From positions 135,001 through 199,000 of the forward strand of contig NZ_CP029797.1 of assembly GCF_003268595.1 (NCBI RefSeq): a stretch of DNA of 64,000 nt, read 5' to 3'. The position numbers were made by a program, and so were the translations under genes. This document shows, one piece after another, positions 6,729-20,278 of this stretch. Numbering within the stretch: position 1 is the stretch's first letter; each line of letters begins with the position of its first letter. Origin of the DNA: Paraliobacillus zengyii (GTDB taxonomy: Bacteria > Bacillota > Bacilli > Bacillales > Amphibacillaceae). The notes beneath the pieces are model-generated. The model was not told the origin of the DNA. It did not search any database and saw only the letters and a program-made list of their open reading frames with translations.

Positions 6729-9158
6729 ATGATGTTTGGACGATTTACAGAAAGAGCGCAAAAGGTATTGGCACTTTCACAAGAGGAAGCAGTAAGATTA
6801 GGGCATAACAATATTGGAACAGAACATATTTTACTAGGTTTAATAAATGAAGGTGAAGGTATTGCTGCTAAAGCACTAACAAGCTTAGGTTTAGAAACTG
6901 AAAAAATCCAACAAGAAGTTGAGAATTTAATAGGTAAAGGTGAAAAAGTATCTCAAACAATTCACTATACACCTAGGGCTAAAAAGGTAATAGAACTTTC
7001 AATGGATGAAGCACGTAAACTTGGTCATTCGTATGTAGGTACAGAGCATATACTCTTAGGTTTGATACGTGAAGGTGAAGGTGTGGCAGCGCGTGTATTA
7101 AATAATATTGGTGTTAGTCTAAATAAAGCTCGCCAGCAAGTATTACAATTGCTTGGAAGTAATGAAACAGCAAGAAAGAACCAAGGAAGAAATGGACAGG
7201 CAACAGCTGCAAACACACCAACACTAGATTCGTTAGCACGTGATTTAACTGCAATAGCAAAAGAGGGAAATATTGATCCAGTTATCGGTCGTGAAAAAGA
7301 AATCGAACGTGTGATTCAAGTGTTAAGTCGTCGTACAAAGAATAATCCCGTATTGATTGGGGAACCAGGTGTCGGTAAGACGGCTGTAGCTGAAGGTCTA
7401 GCACAGCAAGTTGTCAACAATGAAATACCTGAAATGTTACGTGATAAGCGTGTAATGACGTTGGATATGGGTACTGTTGTGGCTGGCACAAAATATCGTG
7501 GAGAATTTGAAGACCGTTTAAAAAAAGTTATGGAAGAGATTCGTCAAGCTGGTAATGTAATTCTGTTTATTGATGAATTGCATACGTTAATTGGTGCAGG
7601 TGGTGCTGAAGGTGCAATCGACGCATCAAATATACTAAAACCATCTCTTGCTAGAGGTGAATTACAATGTATTGGCGCAACAACTATAGATGAATATCGT
7701 AAATACATTGAAAAAGATGCAGCGTTAGAACGTAGATTCCAACCAATCAGAGTGGAAGAACCGACGCTAGAAGAATCTATTTTAATCTTAAAAGGCTTAC
7801 GAGATCGTTACGAGGCACATCATCGTGTTACGATAACTGATGAAGCAATTGAAGCTGCAGCAAACCTTTCAAATCGTTATATAACAGACCGTTTCCTACC
7901 GGATAAAGCGATTGATTTAATTGATGAAGCAGGTTCAAAAGTGCGTTTACGTTCCTACACTGCTCCACCAAACTTGAAGGAATTGGAGCAGGACCTAGAA
8001 GAAGTTAGAAAAGAAAAAGATGCTGCAGTACAGAGCCAAGAGTTTGAGAAAGCAGCTTCTCTACGTGATAGTGAGCAAAGATTGCGAGAAGAAGTAGAAA
8101 CAACGAAAGAAAAATGGAAAGAAAAGCAAGGACAAGAAAGCTCTGAAGTAACTGTAGAAGATATTGCTAGTATTGTATCTACATGGACTGGTGTTCCTGT
8201 TGCTGCATTAACAAAAGATGAGAGTGAACGGTTACTAAACTTAGAACATATTTTACATGATCGTATTATCGGCCAAGGGGAAGCAGTAGATGCTGTTTCT
8301 AAAGCGATTCGTCGTGCCCGTGCAGGTTTAAAGGATCCTAAACGTCCAATTGGGTCATTTATATTCCTAGGTCCAACGGGTGTGGGTAAAACAGAATTAG
8401 CACGTGCACTAGCAGAATCAATGTTTGGTGATGAAGATGCAATGATTCGTATAGATATGTCAGAGTATATGGAAAAACATACAACATCTCGTTTAGTTGG
8501 TTCACCTCCAGGATATGTTGGTTATGAAGAAGGTGGCCAATTAACAGAAAAGGTAAGAAGAAAACCATATTCTGTTGTCTTATTGGATGAGATCGAAAAG
8601 GCACATCCCGAAGTTTTTAATATATTATTACAAGTGCTAGAGGATGGACGTTTAACTGACTCAAAAGGACGTTTAATTGACTTTCGTAACACGGTGCTAA
8701 TTATGACCTCCAATGTTGGTGCAAGTGAACTAAAACAAAACAAATACGTTGGCTTTAGTTTTGGTGATGAAGAAGCAGACTATAAAGATATGAAAGTAAA
8801 AGTAATGGAGGAATTGAAAAAGGCATTCCGTCCAGAGTTTTTAAATAGAATTGATGAGACTATTGTCTTTCATTCATTAGAGAAGAAACATATGAAGGAA
8901 ATTGTGACCTTAATGGTAAAACAACTTCAAAAACGTTTATTAGACCAAGAAATAGATTTTGATCTATCAGAAGAAGCAATTGAGAAAATTGCTAAAGAAG
9001 GTTTCGATCCGGAATACGGTGCGAGACCATTGCGTAGAGCTATACAGAAAAATGTAGAAGATCTAATGTCAGAGGCCTTGTTAAAAGATACCATTCAAAA
9101 AGGTCGTAAGATAAAGATAGGTTTAAATGAAAAGGGAGATTTTGCTGTTTTAAGCTAA
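6729..9158 (+). CDS. clpC: ClpC, AAA+ unfoldase of the Clp protease
   Basis: ClpC unfolds substrates, including arginine-phosphorylated proteins, and feeds them to ClpP. The 809 residues contain a double Clp N domain (1-145), a first AAA+ module with GEPGVGKT and a VILFIDELH Walker B, a UVR-like middle domain (about 410-470), and a second AAA+ module with GPTGVGKT. The AGGAGG site lies about 9 bases before the first of two adjacent ATGs. It is last in the CtsR operon and is followed by a strong terminator. Confidence 0.98.
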
Positions 9159-10803: not shown

Positions 10804-10876
10804 AATAAATAAACTTTTGTCTTTATATACGAATATATTTTAAAAATTAGGAAATACTATGTGATAGGAGGTGACC

Positions 10877-11989
10877 ATGGTGCTAAAAAGAATAGTGCAA
10901 TTATTTATAATTATTGCTGGTGGTACCGCGGGATATTTATATATTCCAGATTTGGTTAGAGTTATTGAGTTTTTGAATGATAGTTGGATAGGTTCTGAAT
11001 TTATTGCGCCATATGTTGGCTTAGTTTTAGGAGCTATTATTCTCTACTTATTAACATTTTGGTTTGTCGATTATATTGTTAATTTTGTACAGTATTTAGA
11101 AGAGACTTTATTAAAAGCACCAGTAGCGGATTTGTTTTTTGGTAGTTTGGGTTTAATTATTGGACTCGTAATAGCGTATATTATAAACCAACCTATACAA
11201 GATATAAATATACTTGTAGTATCACAGGTGATCCCGCTCTTTGTTATGGTTTTACTTGGTTATTTAGGGTTTCAAGTTGGTTTTAAAAGAAGAGATGAAT
11301 TTGTAAATATTTTAACAATTGCTAGAAAAGAAAAGGATCAAAAGCTAGAAAAGGTCGAAGAAGATCCAGCTTCTATTATGCCGAAATCAAAAATATTAGA
11401 TACGAGTGTAATTATTGATGGAAGAATCGCAGATATATGTCAAACTAGTTTCTTAGAAGGGACAGTTATTATTCCCCACTTTGTCTTGGAAGAATTACAA
11501 CATATTGCTGATTCTTCTGATGCATTAAAACGTAATCGTGGTCGCAGAGGCTTAGATGTATTGAATCGAATGCAAAAAGACTTACCGGTTAATGTGGAAA
11601 TGTATGATGGTGATTTTGAAGAAATTCAAGAGGTAGACAGTAAATTAGTTAAGTTAGCAAAAGTGATTAATGGTATTGTCGTTACAAATGACTTTAATCT
11701 CAATAAAGTTTGTGAGTTTCAAAATGTGCAAGTATTGAATATTAATGATCTTGCAAATGCGGTAAAACCAGTTGTTTTACCGGGTGAAGAATTAACGGTT
11801 CAAGTAATTAAAGATGGTAAGGAACAAAATCAAGGTGTAGCTTATTTAGATGATGGTACAATGATTGTTGTTGAAGAAGGCAGAGATTATATCGGTAGAA
11901 CAATTGAAGTTTTAATTACAAGTGTTCTGCAGACCTCCGCTGGACGAATGATATTTGCTAAACCAAAATTACTTGAAAAAGCGCAGTAA
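10877..11989 (+). CDS. yacL: YacL, membrane-anchored PIN/TRAM domain protein
   Basis: A 370-residue protein with four predicted N-terminal membrane segments (to about residue 135), a PIN nuclease-like domain starting KILDTSVIIDGRIADI, and a C-terminal TRAM domain of the RNA-binding kind. The role is not settled; the PIN and TRAM parts suggest RNA cleavage at the membrane. I use the ATG 5 bases after AGGAGGTGA; a GTG three bases later is equally possible, and the GTG at 10871 lies inside the ribosome binding site. Its last 33 bases recur almost unchanged at 17428-17460. Confidence 0.93.
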   Translation: MVLKRIVQLFIIIAGGTAGYLYIPDLVRVIEFLNDSWIGSEFIAPYVGLVLGAIILYLLTFWFVDYIVNFVQYLEETLLKAPVADLFFGSLGLIIGLVIAYIINQPIQDINILVVSQVIPLFVMVLLGYLGFQVGFKRRDEFVNILTIARKEKDQKLEKVEEDPASIMPKSKILDTSVIIDGRIADICQTSFLEGTVIIPHFVLEELQHIADSSDALKRNRGRRGLDVLNRMQKDLPVNVEMYDGDFEEIQEVDSKLVKLAKVINGIVVTNDFNLNKVCEFQNVQVLNINDLANAVKPVVLPGEELTVQVIKDGKEQNQGVAYLDDGTMIVVEEGRDYIGRTIEVLITSVLQTSAGRMIFAKPKLLEKAQ

Positions 11990-12002
11990 AAAATATAAAG
12001 GT

Positions 12003-12041
12003 GATAAAAAGTGATAACTACCCGTTATCACTTTTTATCTG
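12003..12041 (+). terminator. yacL terminator (left copy of a duplicated element)
   Basis: A perfect 16-bp stem (12003-12018 with 12024-12039) around a 5-base loop, T-rich on the descending side. A diverged copy lies at 17488-17522. Confidence 0.9.
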
Positions 12042-12066
12042 TTTAAATAATTTAATCGCCTGACAT

Positions 12067-12102
12067 AAAAAACAGAAGTCTTTGAAAGACTTCTGTTTTT
12101 TT
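12067..12102. terminator. bidirectional terminator between yacL and glpD
   Basis: AAAAAACAGAAGTCTTT pairs with AAAGACTTCTGTTTTTT around a minimal loop. It has A-runs on one side and T-runs on the other, so it can end the convergent transcripts of yacL (+) and glpD (-). Confidence 0.9.
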
Positions 12103-12158
12103 ATATATGTTAAATCATTAGTTATTCTTATTATGTGCCAAGTTTAAAGAGTCTTACA

Positions 12159-13823
12159 TTAATTTTTTTTACGTGTTTCAACAGGTTTTGTTGCATAATG
12201 AATTTCTTCTTCCAATAACTCAATATGTTGATTCAATTGATCTTCTGACCAATGGAAACGATCGTTCATATACTTAATGACTCCTGTTTTCCATTGTCGA
12301 ACATAATCAATGTCAAAGAACAATGCACTCGTACGTCTATTGAAAAAGTCAATTGGTGATACAACCATTTCCTCTTCTATGCCATATACGAGAGAGGCAA
12401 AGACATGAACAGGTAAATCGTAATGGACACTTTCATTTCCTTGTGTGTCAATAATTTCATAAACGCGCTTCACGTTCGAACCATAAAGATTTGATAGTCT
12501 TTTCGCTTCTACTTCCGTTAAACCTAGCTTCTCTCCTTTCTCTGTCCATTCTCTAATAAATGTATCCAGATTAGACGATCCACCTACATCTCCGCCTGAC
12601 AAGATGACTTTTTCTGTTTTGCATTTTACTTTATTACCTAATTCACGTCCTGCAATATCAACAATTCTTTCTGCCATTTTTCGATAACCAGTTAATTTAC
12701 CTCCGGCAATAGAAAGCAATCCACTGTCAGATTCAAAAATCTCATCTTTTCTAGAAATCTCAGAAGCACTTTTTCCTTCTTCGTGAATTAGTGGGCGAAG
12801 ACCGCTCCAACTAGATTCTACATCTTCACGATTTAATTTAACCGATGGAAACATATAGTTTGTAGCATCAATGATATAATCCATGTCTTTTTCTGTCATG
12901 TGTGGAGAAGCAACATCTTCTAAATAATGCGTATCCGTTGTTCCAACATAGGTCTTGCCAGCTCTTGGAATAGCAAACATCATCCGGCCATCATCTTCCG
13001 TGTCAAAATAAACTGCTTGTTTTAGGGGGAATCGAGTTTGATCTATGACAATATGAACGCCCTTCGTTAAGTGAAGGTATTTTCCTTTTTTAGAATGATC
13101 TTTCTCTCTTAGTTCGTCTACCCAAGGCCCTGCTGCATTGATAACCTTTTTAGCATGAATATCGTAAACGTCTCCTGATACAAGATCTTTCACTTTTGCT
13201 CCTACAACTTTTCCATTTTCATAGATAAGTGATTCGGCTTTTGTATAATTGATTGCTTGCGTTCCTCTAAATACGGCTTCTTTTAAAACTTCAAGCGTTA
13301 GCCTAGCATCATCTGTTTTATACTCTACGTAAACTCCGCCACCTTTTAATTTCTTCTCTCCTAGCAAAGGCTCTCTCTTCATTGTTTCTTTCTTACTCAA
13401 CATTTTTCGCCGTTCGCTGCGCTTTACCCCTGCTAAAAAGTCATAAACTTTCAAGCCTAATGAAGTGGAAGCCTTACCAAATGTTCCACCTTGGATTATT
13501 GGCAGCAACATCCATTCGGGACTTGTCACATGTGGAGCGTTTTCGTAAACAATTGCTCTTTCTTTACCTACTTCAGCAACAATTTTAAATTCAAACTGCT
13601 TTAAATAACGCAACCCGCCATGAACTAATTTAGTTGAACGACTAGATGTTCCGGCAGCAAAATCTTGCATTTCCACTAATCCTGTTGATAAGCCTCTTAT
13701 TGTTGCGTCTAGAGCAATGCCAGCTCCAGTTATTCCCCCGCCAATAACAAGAATATCGAGTTCTGTTTCTTTCATTTTTTGCAAATAGGTTTCACGTTGC
13801 ATCGTTGAAAAAGGTTTAACCAT
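12159..13823 (-). CDS. glpD: GlpD, aerobic glycerol-3-phosphate dehydrogenase
   Basis: GlpD oxidises sn-glycerol 3-phosphate to dihydroxyacetone phosphate with FAD and passes electrons to quinone at the membrane. The 554-residue product has the FAD-binding VIGGGITGAG loop at about residues 26-35, an SRSTKLVHGGLRYL segment and the usual family length. The ribosome binding site AGAAGGGATG precedes the ATG. It is the last gene of the glycerol block and has its own promoter and a leader terminator upstream, as expected for control by GlpP. Confidence 0.97.
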   Translation of the reverse strand: MVKPFSTMQRETYLQKMKETELDILVIGGGITGAGIALDATIRGLSTGLVEMQDFAAGTSSRSTKLVHGGLRYLKQFEFKIVAEVGKERAIVYENAPHVTSPEWMLLPIIQGGTFGKASTSLGLKVYDFLAGVKRSERRKMLSKKETMKREPLLGEKKLKGGGVYVEYKTDDARLTLEVLKEAVFRGTQAINYTKAESLIYENGKVVGAKVKDLVSGDVYDIHAKKVINAAGPWVDELREKDHSKKGKYLHLTKGVHIVIDQTRFPLKQAVYFDTEDDGRMMFAIPRAGKTYVGTTDTHYLEDVASPHMTEKDMDYIIDATNYMFPSVKLNREDVESSWSGLRPLIHEEGKSASEISRKDEIFESDSGLLSIAGGKLTGYRKMAERIVDIAGRELGNKVKCKTEKVILSGGDVGGSSNLDTFIREWTEKGEKLGLTEVEAKRLSNLYGSNVKRVYEIIDTQGNESVHYDLPVHVFASLVYGIEEEMVVSPIDFFNRRTSALFFDIDYVRQWKTGVIKYMNDRFHWSEDQLNQHIELLEEEIHYATKPVETRKKN

Positions 13824-13900
13824 ATAAAAACATCCCTTCTAGTAGTTTGTTAACTTATATAAATAAGAAACTCAGTCTTTCGGAGATTTATCATGTATCG

Positions 13901-14004
13901 AAAAAAAGAGACCACAACAACCCTTACATAAAAGAGTATCTTCTATGCTCAAGTGATGTGGTCTCTCCATCTCCGGACCTTTTTATTAATTTAAACTAAT
14001 TATA
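13901..14004 (-). promoter_or_regulatory. glpD promoter -10 and GlpP-type leader terminator
   Basis: On the minus strand a TATAAT (-10 at 13999-14004) is followed by a leader in which AGAGACCACA (13957-13966) can pair with TGTGGTCTCT (13907-13916), then a run of seven T (13901-13907). This is an intrinsic terminator before the gene. The upstream CGGAGATGGAGAGACC resembles the glpF leader element, so both are candidate GlpP antitermination targets. Sequence elements are seen; GlpP binding is inferred from the known B. subtilis system. Confidence 0.75.
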
Positions 14005-14042
14005 TCATAGATTACATACTTTTATAACAAATTAGCTTAATA

Positions 14043-16405
<2,363 letters not shown>

Positions 16406-16430
16406 GTCAATTCCCTCCCAAACAAATTTT

Positions 16431-16520
16431 AGGAGACCAAATAAGACCAACAGAATCCACCCTAGACGTATCGCCTTTAGGTGCATTTCCGTTGGTCTCC
16501 TTAGTCTCCACGAAAAATTT
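16431..16520 (-). promoter_or_regulatory. glpF leader with GGAGACC inverted repeats (candidate GlpP target)
   Basis: On the minus strand AGGAGACCAA (16492-16501) can pair either with TTGGTCTCCT (16431-16440) or, more weakly, with GTTGGTCTTA (about 16442-16451), giving mutually exclusive hairpins. The GGAGAC...GAGACCA core resembles the glpD leader. No long T-run follows, so termination efficiency is unclear; the element may act as an attenuator or limit translation. Confidence 0.6.
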
Positions 16521-16535
16521 ATTAACTTAAGGTTC

Positions 16536-16564
16536 ATTCAAACAGATGTTGAAAGCGGTGTCAA
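16536..16564 (-). promoter_or_regulatory. glpF promoter
   Basis: On the minus strand TTGACA (16559-16564), a 17-base spacer and TTGAAT (16536-16541). The -35 is perfect and the -10 has four of six consensus bases. A CcpA box overlaps the -35 and spacer. Confidence 0.75.
16550..16563. promoter_or_regulatory. CcpA catabolite-responsive element (cre)
   Basis: TGAAAGCGGTGTCA matches the cre consensus TGWAANCGNTNWCA at every position. It overlaps the -35 and spacer of the glpF promoter, so CcpA bound with HPr-Ser-P would occlude polymerase when glucose is present. Confidence 0.9.
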
Positions 16565-16604
16565 TAGATTTTCGATAATTAAATAACTTAATTGTTTAAA
16601 AAGT

Positions 16605-17159
16605 TTAATTATTAAATTCCCATAAGTTCCTGTTTGACGTCGTTACCGCTGTTGCTCCGGCTTCTAATGCAGCATTTACTTCATCAATTGTACGTATCAA
16701 TCCACCGGCTATAATTGGCACATTTGTTTTATCATGAATTTCTTTAATAATATGTGGAATAATCCCGGGAAGGACTTCTATTAAATCTGGTTGAATCGAA
16801 TCTAGCATATTATAGCTAGAATCCAATGCAATTGAATCTAGTAGAAATAACCGCTGAATCGTAATTATTTTCGCCTTTTTGGCGGTTAACAGAACATTTT
16901 TTCTAGTTGAAATTAATCCCTCGGGGCGAATGTCCCTGCATAAAAATTGGGCTGCGAATTCATCACTCTTTAAACCTTTCACCAAGTCCGCATGAAGCAG
17001 TACTTTTTTATCATGATCATGAAGCATTTTAACTAAACTTTTCAGTTGTCCAATATGTGTATTTAGTAAAACAACATACTCGTAATTTGAATTGGCCACT
17101 TTTTCTAAATCTTTTAAGTCACGAATAGCAGGTAAGATAGTTGAGTCAGATATAGTCAT
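16605..17159 (-). CDS. glpP: GlpP, glycerol-3-phosphate-responsive antiterminator
   Basis: GlpP is an RNA-binding antiterminator that, with glycerol 3-phosphate, lets polymerase read through leader terminators of glp genes and stabilises glpD mRNA. The 184-residue product has the family's TIM-barrel-like pattern, ending in a phosphate-binding IIAGGLIRT and ATAVTTSNRNLWEF tail. AAAGGAAG lies upstream of the ATG. It is the promoter-proximal gene of the block in the order glpP-glpF-glpK-glpD, as in B. subtilis. Confidence 0.94.
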   Translation of the reverse strand: MTISDSTILPAIRDLKDLEKVANSNYEYVVLLNTHIGQLKSLVKMLHDHDKKVLLHADLVKGLKSDEFAAQFLCRDIRPEGLISTRKNVLLTAKKAKIITIQRLFLLDSIALDSSYNMLDSIQPDLIEVLPGIIPHIIKEIHDKTNVPIIAGGLIRTIDEVNAALEAGATAVTTSNRNLWEFNN

Positions 17160-17379
17160 GTAGTAACTTCCTTTCCGTTTTTAACAGATATCGTAAATAG
17201 TATAGCATATGCAAAAGCTCACTTAATTCTGAAAAAAAGATAGTTTATTTTTATATATACCCCTGTTTCCAATCACCTAACTACTTATCTCGCTAGGTTA
17301 GAAAGATCTGAGCAATCGCTCTAGTTAATAGAATTTAGTTGCCTATAATGTTTGCTGGCTTGCTATCTACTTCTTAATA

Positions 17380-17463
17380 TAAACAATCTCTTATAATATG
17401 AGTATGATAGAATCTGTAAACCAATGCTTTGCCAAACTAAAATTACTTGAAAAAGCGCAGTAA
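17380..17463 (+). pseudogene. truncated second copy of the yacL 3' end
   Basis: Bases 17428-17460 match yacL 11954-11986 at 31 of 33 positions, including the FAK-LKLLEKAQ reading and the stop codon. Weaker matches with small deletions extend upstream (for example TCTGTAAACC at about 17413 against TCTGCAGACC in yacL). No start or upstream coding part remains. It sits just before ispD, where the end of yacL would be in the ancestral order, and marks the right edge of the glp block. Confidence 0.85.
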
Positions 17464-17487
17464 AAAAGGTATAACATATAAGGGATG

Positions 17488-17522
17488 ATAAAAAGTGATA
17501 ACCATCTGGTATCACTTTTTAT
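17488..17522 (+). terminator. right copy of the yacL terminator
   Basis: ATAAAAAGTGATAACC pairs with GGTATCACTTTTTAT with one bulged A. It is the diverged counterpart of 12003-12041; the loop has changed while pairing has been kept. Confidence 0.85.
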
Positions 17523-17603
17523 TTGTTTGGAACGATTTAATAGTATCAAACAACAAAATATATGTTAGTTCAAGATACGTAATAAGAGAACGGAGACATA
17601 GTC

Positions 17604-18290
17604 ATGGAGTATGTAGCTATTGTACTTGCTGCTGGGATAGGGAAGCGAATGAACATAGGTGAAAACAAACAATTTTTAAATCTAATGGATAAGCCTTTAA
17701 TTATACATACGTTAACCATATTTGAAAATGATCCATGCTGTGAAGCTATTATATTAGTAACACAACAGAATGAGCAAGAAAGAATGCAGTCTGTCCTTCT
17801 GGATTATTCCTTTACTACAGCAATTACGCTGGTAACTGGCGGAAGACATCGACAAGACAGTGTTTATAATGGTTTGTTAGCTATTCGCCCGTTTCAGGAA
17901 ACGAATGATTTTCTTGTCTTTATCCATGATGGTGCAAGGCCTTTTGTGACACAGAAATATTTACATGAGCTAGCAAAACGTGCAAAGGAAAATCGTGCTG
18001 CATTATTGGCTGTTCCAGTAACGGATACGATTAAAGAAAAGAATGGAGACCAGTTAACAACGCTTGACAGATCCAAACTTTGGGCAGCACAAACGCCACA
18101 GGTTTTTCAATTTGAGTTGATCTGGGAAGCGCATCAAAAAGCCAAAGAGACAGGTTTTGTTGGTACAGATGACACATCTTTAGTTGAGCGATTAGGTTAT
18201 TCTGTATGTATAGTCGAAGGAAGTTATAAGAACATAAAATTAACTACACCCGAAGATATAAAAAGAGCAGAGGCTTTTCTAAATAACTAG
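17604..18290 (+). CDS. ispD: IspD, 2-C-methyl-D-erythritol 4-phosphate cytidylyltransferase
   Basis: IspD couples methylerythritol 4-phosphate to CTP in the MEP route to isoprenoids. The 228 residues show the nucleotide-binding LAAGIGKRM at 8-16, the VFIHDGARPFV motif near 103-113, and the AAQTPQVF segment, all expected of active enzymes. The ATG follows a GGAGA site. Its usual partner ispF is present only as a relic immediately downstream, so the next-but-one pathway step must be encoded elsewhere if the pathway works. Confidence 0.96.
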   Translation: MEYVAIVLAAGIGKRMNIGENKQFLNLMDKPLIIHTLTIFENDPCCEAIILVTQQNEQERMQSVLLDYSFTTAITLVTGGRHRQDSVYNGLLAIRPFQETNDFLVFIHDGARPFVTQKYLHELAKRAKENRAALLAVPVTDTIKEKNGDQLTTLDRSKLWAAQTPQVFQFELIWEAHQKAKETGFVGTDDTSLVERLGYSVCIVEGSYKNIKLTTPEDIKRAEAFLNN

Positions 18291-19980: not shown

Positions 19981-20029
19981 ATTGTATCAGTTCCATTTTG
20001 TGTTAAAATATAATATAGTATAACTAATA

Positions 20030-20278
20030 AGTGAACGTTGAAGAGGAAAAGTACTGACGTCCGTACTTAATTTAGAGAAAATCACCATTGGCTGAAAGTG
20101 ATTTTAGGTACACGTCTTGGAAATGCACCTTGGAGTCCTTTGTCGAAATCCGAGTAGACAAAGGCGGTTTTTAACCGTTAAAAAAAGCCTAAGTGGAGGG
20201 AATTTATTCCCTAAACAGAGTGGGACCGCGCATGTAAAGCGTCTCTGTGTTGATTAAGACATAGAGGCGTTTTTTTGT
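20030..20278 (+). ncRNA. T-box leader, cysteine specifier, upstream of cysES
   Basis: The stretch carries the T-box riboswitch landmarks: a Stem I region beginning about 20032 (GAACGTTGAAGAGG), a specifier TGC (Cys) at 20124-20126 in GGAAATGCACC, the T-box GTGGGACCGCG (about 20220-20230), and a terminator with an 11-bp stem (20240-20250 with 20259-20269) followed by T's. Uncharged tRNA-Cys would stabilise the antiterminator and turn on cysE and cysS. The specifier assignment fits the downstream genes. Confidence 0.93.

Follow-up and report, generated by a model that had tools for sequence, protein, structure and literature searches.

A glycerol operon between two copies of the yacL end

The window analyzed here, a 64,000-nucleotide stretch of the Paraliobacillus zengyii genome (contig NZ_CP029797.1, positions 135,001 to 199,000 of the forward strand), contains a complete minus-strand glycerol operon, glpP-glpF-glpK-glpD, which lies between yacL and ispD and is bracketed by a direct repeat. 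Each copy of this repeat consists of the 3' end of yacL followed by a terminator-like hairpin. Comparison with other genomes identifies the operon as a lateral acquisition of Salipaludibacillus type and gives good support to an insertion that duplicated resident-type sequence at its target. The locus is organized as follows (the gene name yacL is the one given in the first reading of the sequence):

10871..11989 (+): resident yacL gene, whose final 33 coding bases and stop codon begin the left repeat; matches in 60 of 60 relatives searched
11954..12056 (+): left repeat copy, yacL 3' end and terminator hairpin
11973..11999 (+): promoter-like motif of the left copy with broken spacing, TTGAAA (11973-11978), N15, TATAAA (11994-11999)
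12003..12039 (+): terminator hairpin of the left copy, 16 bp stem; the scan tool names the minus strand
12057..12118: 62 bp of untraced origin outside the donor match, with a near-perfect hairpin at 12067-12101 (glpD-side terminator)
12119..17261 (-): transferred block, collinear with Salipaludibacillus glpPFKD
12159..13823 (-): glpD, glycerol-3-phosphate dehydrogenase/oxidase
14043..15548 (-): glpK, glycerol kinase
15560..16405 (-): glpF, glycerol facilitator; the reading frame is open to 16537
16605..17159 (-): glpP, glycerol-3-phosphate responsive antiterminator
17262..17427: 166 bp of untraced origin between donor homology and right repeat
17428..17541 (+): right repeat copy, a non-coding remnant of the yacL 3' end plus the conserved element, directly before ispD
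17447..17475 (+): conserved promoter-like motif, TTGAAA (17447-17452), N17, TATAAC (17470-17475)
17487..17523 (+): terminator-like hairpin of the right copy, with one bulged A; -16.1 kcal/mol for a 75-nt stretch
17604..18290 (+): ispD, resident downstream neighbor

The last 33 coding bases of yacL (11954-11986) recur at 17428-17460 with 31 positions alike, the two differences being the codons GCT/GCC and CCA/CTA, and in each copy the stop codon stands directly 3' of this match (11987-11989 and 17461-17463). Both copies continue into the hairpin, and the similarity extends to about 12056 on the left and about 17541 on the right, with 82% identity overall in a gapped alignment and a spacer that is some 10 nt shorter in the left copy. 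The left copy still ends yacL and carries its terminator. A longer yacL remnant 5' of position 17428 was rejected because the alignment there scores no higher than shuffled sequences; the right copy therefore has an abrupt 5' edge.

When the left unit was searched against the whole 3.73 Mb genome, it found the right unit with an E value of 2e-23 and the next match at only 0.009; in the same search, the hairpin also matched its own opposite strand (E values of 9e-6 and 7e-4). This complete genome thus contains no third copy above noise, and we rejected the idea of a dispersed element for it on the grounds of this single pair. Few exact direct repeats of 20 nt or more lie 4-8 kb apart: the yacL-end pair is the one example in the 64-kb window, and 787 kb of a second genome discussed below (G363) contain five clusters, one of which brackets its own glp operon. 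This rarity makes an origin by chance very unlikely.

Among open reading frames of at least 80 amino acids, the insert holds the four glp genes and opposite-strand frames that overlap them, and nothing further. No integrase, recombinase, replication origin or carrier sequence was seen at this threshold, nor was a transposase frame found in the insert, and no inverted repeats other than the hairpins themselves bound the block. The preliminary description of this DNA had reported the 33-base recurrence with two differences, the repeated hairpin, the whole operon between the copies with ispD after the right one, and the lack of a remaining integrase or transposase. All of this agrees with our analysis, except that it had counted the stop codon among the 33 bases.

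Donor of the operon and ancestral state of the site

The block points to Salipaludibacillus. GlpD is 86% identical to its counterpart in Salipaludibacillus sp. HK11, 84% to that of S. daqingensis and 82% to that of S. keqinensis, as compared to 62% for the best among the matches listed from the organism's own family (159 genomes). The corresponding values are 85% versus 45-53% (nine own-family loci) for GlpP, and 86-90% versus 78% for GlpK. A class-wide search with GlpP returned nothing above 64% besides the window itself, and two metagenomic contigs, of 24,031 and 5,289 bases, encode GlpD and GlpP proteins that are 94-97% identical to those of the window. At the DNA level, the operon is collinear with Salipaludibacillus loci, as one piece or as two. 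The best match, to S. daqingensis, has 79.3% identity over 5,135 columns (window 12119-17210) and continues more weakly to about 17261. For glpF, homology in most donor loci starts around residue 41-45.

In a GlpD tree of 54 sequences, the window groups with S. daqingensis and S. keqinensis (support 98/91), and this group is nested in a Salipaludibacillus set that includes G363 (99/91). All 29 own-family sequences, which are the best-matching loci rather than a random sample and leave out the genus-mate G001, stand across a branch with 100/100 support. The glpK of the block is the only close copy in its own genome. Four distant FGGY-type matches to GlpK (G000:C1 1844738, 2848380, 799263 and 3429693) were considered as a second glycerol kinase and rejected by their identity of 24-34%.

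The site without the operon is preserved in relatives. We took 80 named yacL loci, three of which lie on contigs that end too soon to show the next gene. In all of the remaining 77, the next of the genes sought after yacL is ispD or gltX, at a distance of at most 816 bp, and never glp. The same order holds for 29 of 29 loci in a second set that overlaps the first, and the sole genus-mate compared, G001, has yacL followed by ispD with no glp. Among the genomes compared, the insertion is therefore private to the lineage of the window. At many loci (L044, L051, L052, L067-L074 and others) ispD was not found between yacL and gltX.

Since the GlpD phylogeny conflicts with the species relationship and glp is absent at this locus in relatives, lateral acquisition is supported. 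As judged by these comparisons, a complete Salipaludibacillus-type glpPFKD entered an ancestor of Paraliobacillus between yacL and ispD. Furthermore, the ancestral empty site, the private insertion and the resident-like character of both repeat copies (see below) argue for a direct duplication of about 103-114 bp at both sides. Insertion with duplication of a resident-type target is thus well supported by the sequences.

These results also bear on what the preliminary description had proposed. Relatives with yacL directly before ispD (or gltX) do exist, the glpD tree suggested there as a test of transfer places the block within Salipaludibacillus, no relative in view carries glp at this position, and the repeat is not dispersed in its own genome. 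The proposed entry at the yacL end stands as far as lateral entry and target duplication are concerned; the circular molecule carrying that end is the inferred part. The claim that the event is not recent fits with a best donor at 79% DNA identity, but the divergence between the copies, on which that claim was built, cannot serve as a clean clock, since constraint probably acts on part of each copy.

A conserved element at the yacL end

The segment that was doubled is itself unusual. The right copy is matched at E values of at most 1e-4 in 152 of the 159 family genomes, its own included. In 106 of 108 distinct relatives, a motif of the form TTGAAA-N16/17-TATAA(C/A) runs across the last yacL codons and the following spacer, with a spacing of 17 in 103 cases and 16 in three. 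The second hexamer is TATAAC in 81 of these 106 rows, TATAAA in 25 and TATAAT in none. Nearby alanine and proline codons use all four third bases across relatives, whereas the sixth codon from the yacL end (counting the stop as the first) is CTT in 107 of 108 and the fifth is GAA in all 108. Downstream by 4-24 nt (98 rows measured) follows a hairpin with the arms GTGATAAC and GTTATC(A/G)C and loops of 3-9 nt, present in 103 of the 108 relatives and in the left copy (104 of 110 rows in all), with 7-12 T within the 14 nt after the core stem. The right-copy hairpin was missed by the search expression owing to its one bulge, yet it folds. Consensus folding of the element with alifold gave no structure, and the stem pairs were therefore counted directly.

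In the window, the spacing of 16 or 17 is kept only in the copy before ispD, which is also the sole exact match to the motif in its own genome; in the left copy the spacing is 15. Of 397 genomes sampled from the order, 42 contain the exact motif, each of them a single time, and it is confined to some families. Besides the window's own, 29 such loci were compared, and 28 of them lie at the yacL end and one elsewhere. The conserved element is present in several families of the order. It is also kept at the yacL end where ispD was not found before gltX, and hence is not tied to ispD alone. A family-wide search with the motif shortened by one base and two mismatches allowed returned mostly unrelated places, along with genus g16 with spacing 16 and two exact matches in g19.

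The simplest reading of this arrangement, which we offer as a lead, is a promoter followed immediately by a terminator, which would produce an attenuated leader or a very short RNA serving the ispD/gltX side. Like promoter-proximal attenuators, the element places a promoter-like motif and then a terminator hairpin ahead of a gene. Unlike them, it has an invariant stem sequence, occurs in its exact form in some families only, and matches no Rfam family at gathering score (a scan of the window gave only a T-box leader). The stem-loop and T run are those of an intrinsic terminator. The hexamers have the 17 ± 1 spacing of a sigma-A promoter in 106 of the 108 relatives, but the final T of the -10 hexamer is absent throughout, which speaks against the promoter reading. 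Consistent with this feature, the consensus scan tool, which requires that T, calls no promoter here; it does not call the right hairpin either. The element did not turn up in a search of open-licence full-text literature. In the right copy, the intact promoter-like motif and the hairpin stand before ispD, where they may be active.

A further lead concerns AAAAARGGUAUAAC, a sequence that follows the yacL stop (17461-17475, for instance) and resembles the 5' arm of the terminator, so that pairing with the 3' arm is conceivable. This alternative pairing has a mean z score of -1.47 against dinucleotide shuffles, with 43 of 103 rows, which are related to one another, below -2, and is half as stable as the terminator. 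It might act as an antiterminator that is covered by a ribosome at the yacL stop.

A second recipient and the route of entry

The same operon has been received at least once more. The genome G363, from another family (f35), carries it at 92% identity to S. aurantiacus over 5.1 kb, and in the GlpD tree it forms a group with S. aurantiacus and one sister strain (support 100/99). Five other listed genomes of that family have far weaker GlpD matches (E values of about 6e-216 to 1e-220, compared to 6e-302). The block in G363 is bracketed by a direct repeat of its own, 45 of 47 positions identical with a gapped extension to about 60 bp, located, in reverse complement numbering, at about 8354-8413 and about 13792-13848 of locus L307. 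Only these two copies occur in the 787 kb of its contig that were searched, roughly a fifth of the genome. In the donor genus, seven of eight loci lack such a bracketing repeat, and the eighth has matches of only 14 and 20 nt. The flanks and left repeats of the two recipients are no more similar to each other than shuffled sequences are; the right repeats are weakly alike, but 11 of 300 shuffles score at least as high, and we do not count this as evidence. G363 is an independent recipient of the same operon, with a direct repeat of different sequence, 47-60 bp long. The operon ends differ between the two recipients, and in both, 62-168 bp of unexplained sequence separate the operon from the repeat. 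These flanks indicate that the inserted piece probably extended beyond the operon itself. The neighbors in G363 are genes for an AAA_13 ATPase, a TetR regulator, an MFS transporter and FliD, with a second FliD-like frame recognizable by eye.

How may the block have entered? We favor a single crossover of a circle. An ancestor of Paraliobacillus would have acquired the Salipaludibacillus-type glpPFKD on, or joined to, a circular or circularized molecule that also held yacL-end DNA of recipient type. One crossover within this short homology would have placed the block between yacL and ispD and doubled the homologous segment, and the rest of the carrier would have been lost afterwards. The element probably starts or attenuates transcription toward ispD and gltX, and the insertion may have survived because the element was doubled rather than split. 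Taken as a whole, from operon transfer and target duplication to circle crossover and carrier loss, we consider this explanation reasonably probable. It has a precedent in Campbell-type integration, where the homologous segment likewise ends up directly duplicated at both sides; the relevant passages of one study report duplications of 109-950 bp from single crossovers of circles in 14 sequenced E. coli clones (PMC3240628). Unlike in those cases, no carrier sequence is left here and no homologous donor segment was identified.

Several observations weigh against this explanation. None of the 15 genomes sampled from the donor family (f25, Salipaludibacillus) contains the exact motif, which turns a circle holding recipient-type yacL DNA into a special assumption. 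Neither a carrier nor an integrase or origin is visible in the insert. The block has no foreign base composition, with a G+C content of 37.7% compared to 37.4% for the window; its G+C content at third codon positions is 0.26-0.29, as against 0.21-0.28 for yacL, ispD and gltX. Among plasmid records, the best glpD is only 60% identical, and at an E value of 0.01 or below the repeat matched none of 50,697 phage records and none of 72,556 plasmid records. The apparent parallel in G363 consists of the repeat pair, read in about one-fifth of that genome. Finally, the affinity of the right copy for the genus-mate, described below, makes a modest test, as the right copy outscores the shortened left copy with two other genera too.

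The main alternative is illegitimate insertion of a linear fragment that duplicated its target without a recombinase, giving direct repeats of 50-110 bp. Such an insertion might, for example, begin at a staggered break whose two sides are then filled in, or natural transformation might be followed by single-strand annealing at a replication gap. This alternative accounts well for two recipients of the same operon with direct repeats that differ in sequence and length, for repeats that look resident in the window and occur only at the insertion in 787 kb of G363, for the different operon ends and for the absence of mobile genes from the window insert. On the other hand, the unexplained 62-168 bp imply that the fragment was not simply the operon, there are two cases only, and for illegitimate integration of the one-sided kind, deletions are the described outcome (PMC3240628, in the passages that treat it). 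That process, homology-facilitated illegitimate recombination, resembles the present case as a route by which competent bacteria take in foreign DNA with one homologous anchor, and the relevant part of a Vibrio study proposes it for module displacement (PMC5361080). It differs in its product, described in these passages as a deletion of resident DNA (PMC3240628), where we find a duplication. We consider illegitimate insertion rather unlikely. The same caution applies to its broadest form, in which operon-sized foreign DNA would have entered twice without a recombinase, each time doubling a target of about 50-110 bp, and in which the target in the window would be an undescribed invariant promoter-attenuator or small-RNA element whose doubling rendered the insertion harmless and provided a natural experiment, the ispD-side copy alone having stayed intact; this, too, we regard as a tentative and improbable proposal.

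Direct target duplication at both sides is also a mark of transposition. Known target duplications of this kind measure from a few to about 14 bp. Neither a transposase nor terminal inverted repeats were seen at the window block, unlike at transposed elements.

A gene 3' end followed by a terminator is a classic kind of attachment site, and the repeat could accordingly be read as the remains of an eroded genomic island: a tyrosine recombinase would have acted at the yacL 3' end, the repeats would be attL and attR with the hairpin arms as core sites, and the integrase and cargo would have been deleted. The repeat does consist of the end of its target gene and a terminator with a strong inverted repeat, it brackets foreign genes as islands at gene 3' ends do, and little transferred DNA is left beyond the operon, as after erosion. 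The lineage of the copies tells against such an origin. The right copy scores best with the single site of G001 and the left copy with the right copy, in each case over the whole unit and over the non-coding part (108 relatives, less any too short); when only the hairpin and tail are compared, the two copies are each other's best-scoring match. Both copies thus look resident, which favors target duplication over a foreign attP as one of the halves.

Apart from one unplaced match, no other user of the site was encountered in the genomes and records searched. Relatives as a rule carry a single direct site: of the 159 family genomes, with at most five candidates scored in each, ten gave a second match to the unit, and nine of these are the reverse strand of the hairpin or a contig split. 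The tenth, in G097, is a weak second match that its yacL locus does not explain and that could not be placed. We also considered phages and plasmids as carriers of the repeat or block and rejected them, as none was found in the phage and plasmid records; phage glycerol kinases there are at most 73% identical. The exact motif was absent from viral contigs, and one viral contig that matches it with a spacing one base shorter was set aside as a probable chance match inside other sequence. Taken with the missing integrase and the different repeat in G363, which would be unexpected for one integrase, these observations make an eroded island still less probable than illegitimate insertion.

A coincidence, in which the yacL end was first duplicated in tandem on the spot and an unrelated glp insertion later came to lie between the copies, would fit copies that have diverged and differ by about 10 nt in the spacer and are hence not fresh, but it is very improbable, as no relative in view has a second direct yacL-end copy near the first and the parallel in G363 makes it less likely still.

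The two main candidate routes are crossover of a circle, which we favor, and target duplication that needs no recombinase. What sets this locus apart from one more island is the parallel case together with the conserved element. Operons without mobility genes move between families, and the scar that would show how they did so is usually lost; here it is readable, and the comparable scar in a second recipient makes the mechanism testable by surveying recipients. The duplication also hints that the element serves the downstream genes.

Two minor features of the window remain to be mentioned. Hairpin-like leaders stand before glpD (13899-13976) and glpF (16431-16497) and, judged by eye, resemble GlpP-responsive terminators; 27 nt of the glpD leader have a 93% match in one other genome. 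The T-box leader lies at 20029-20249, after gltX, with a score of 125 bits.

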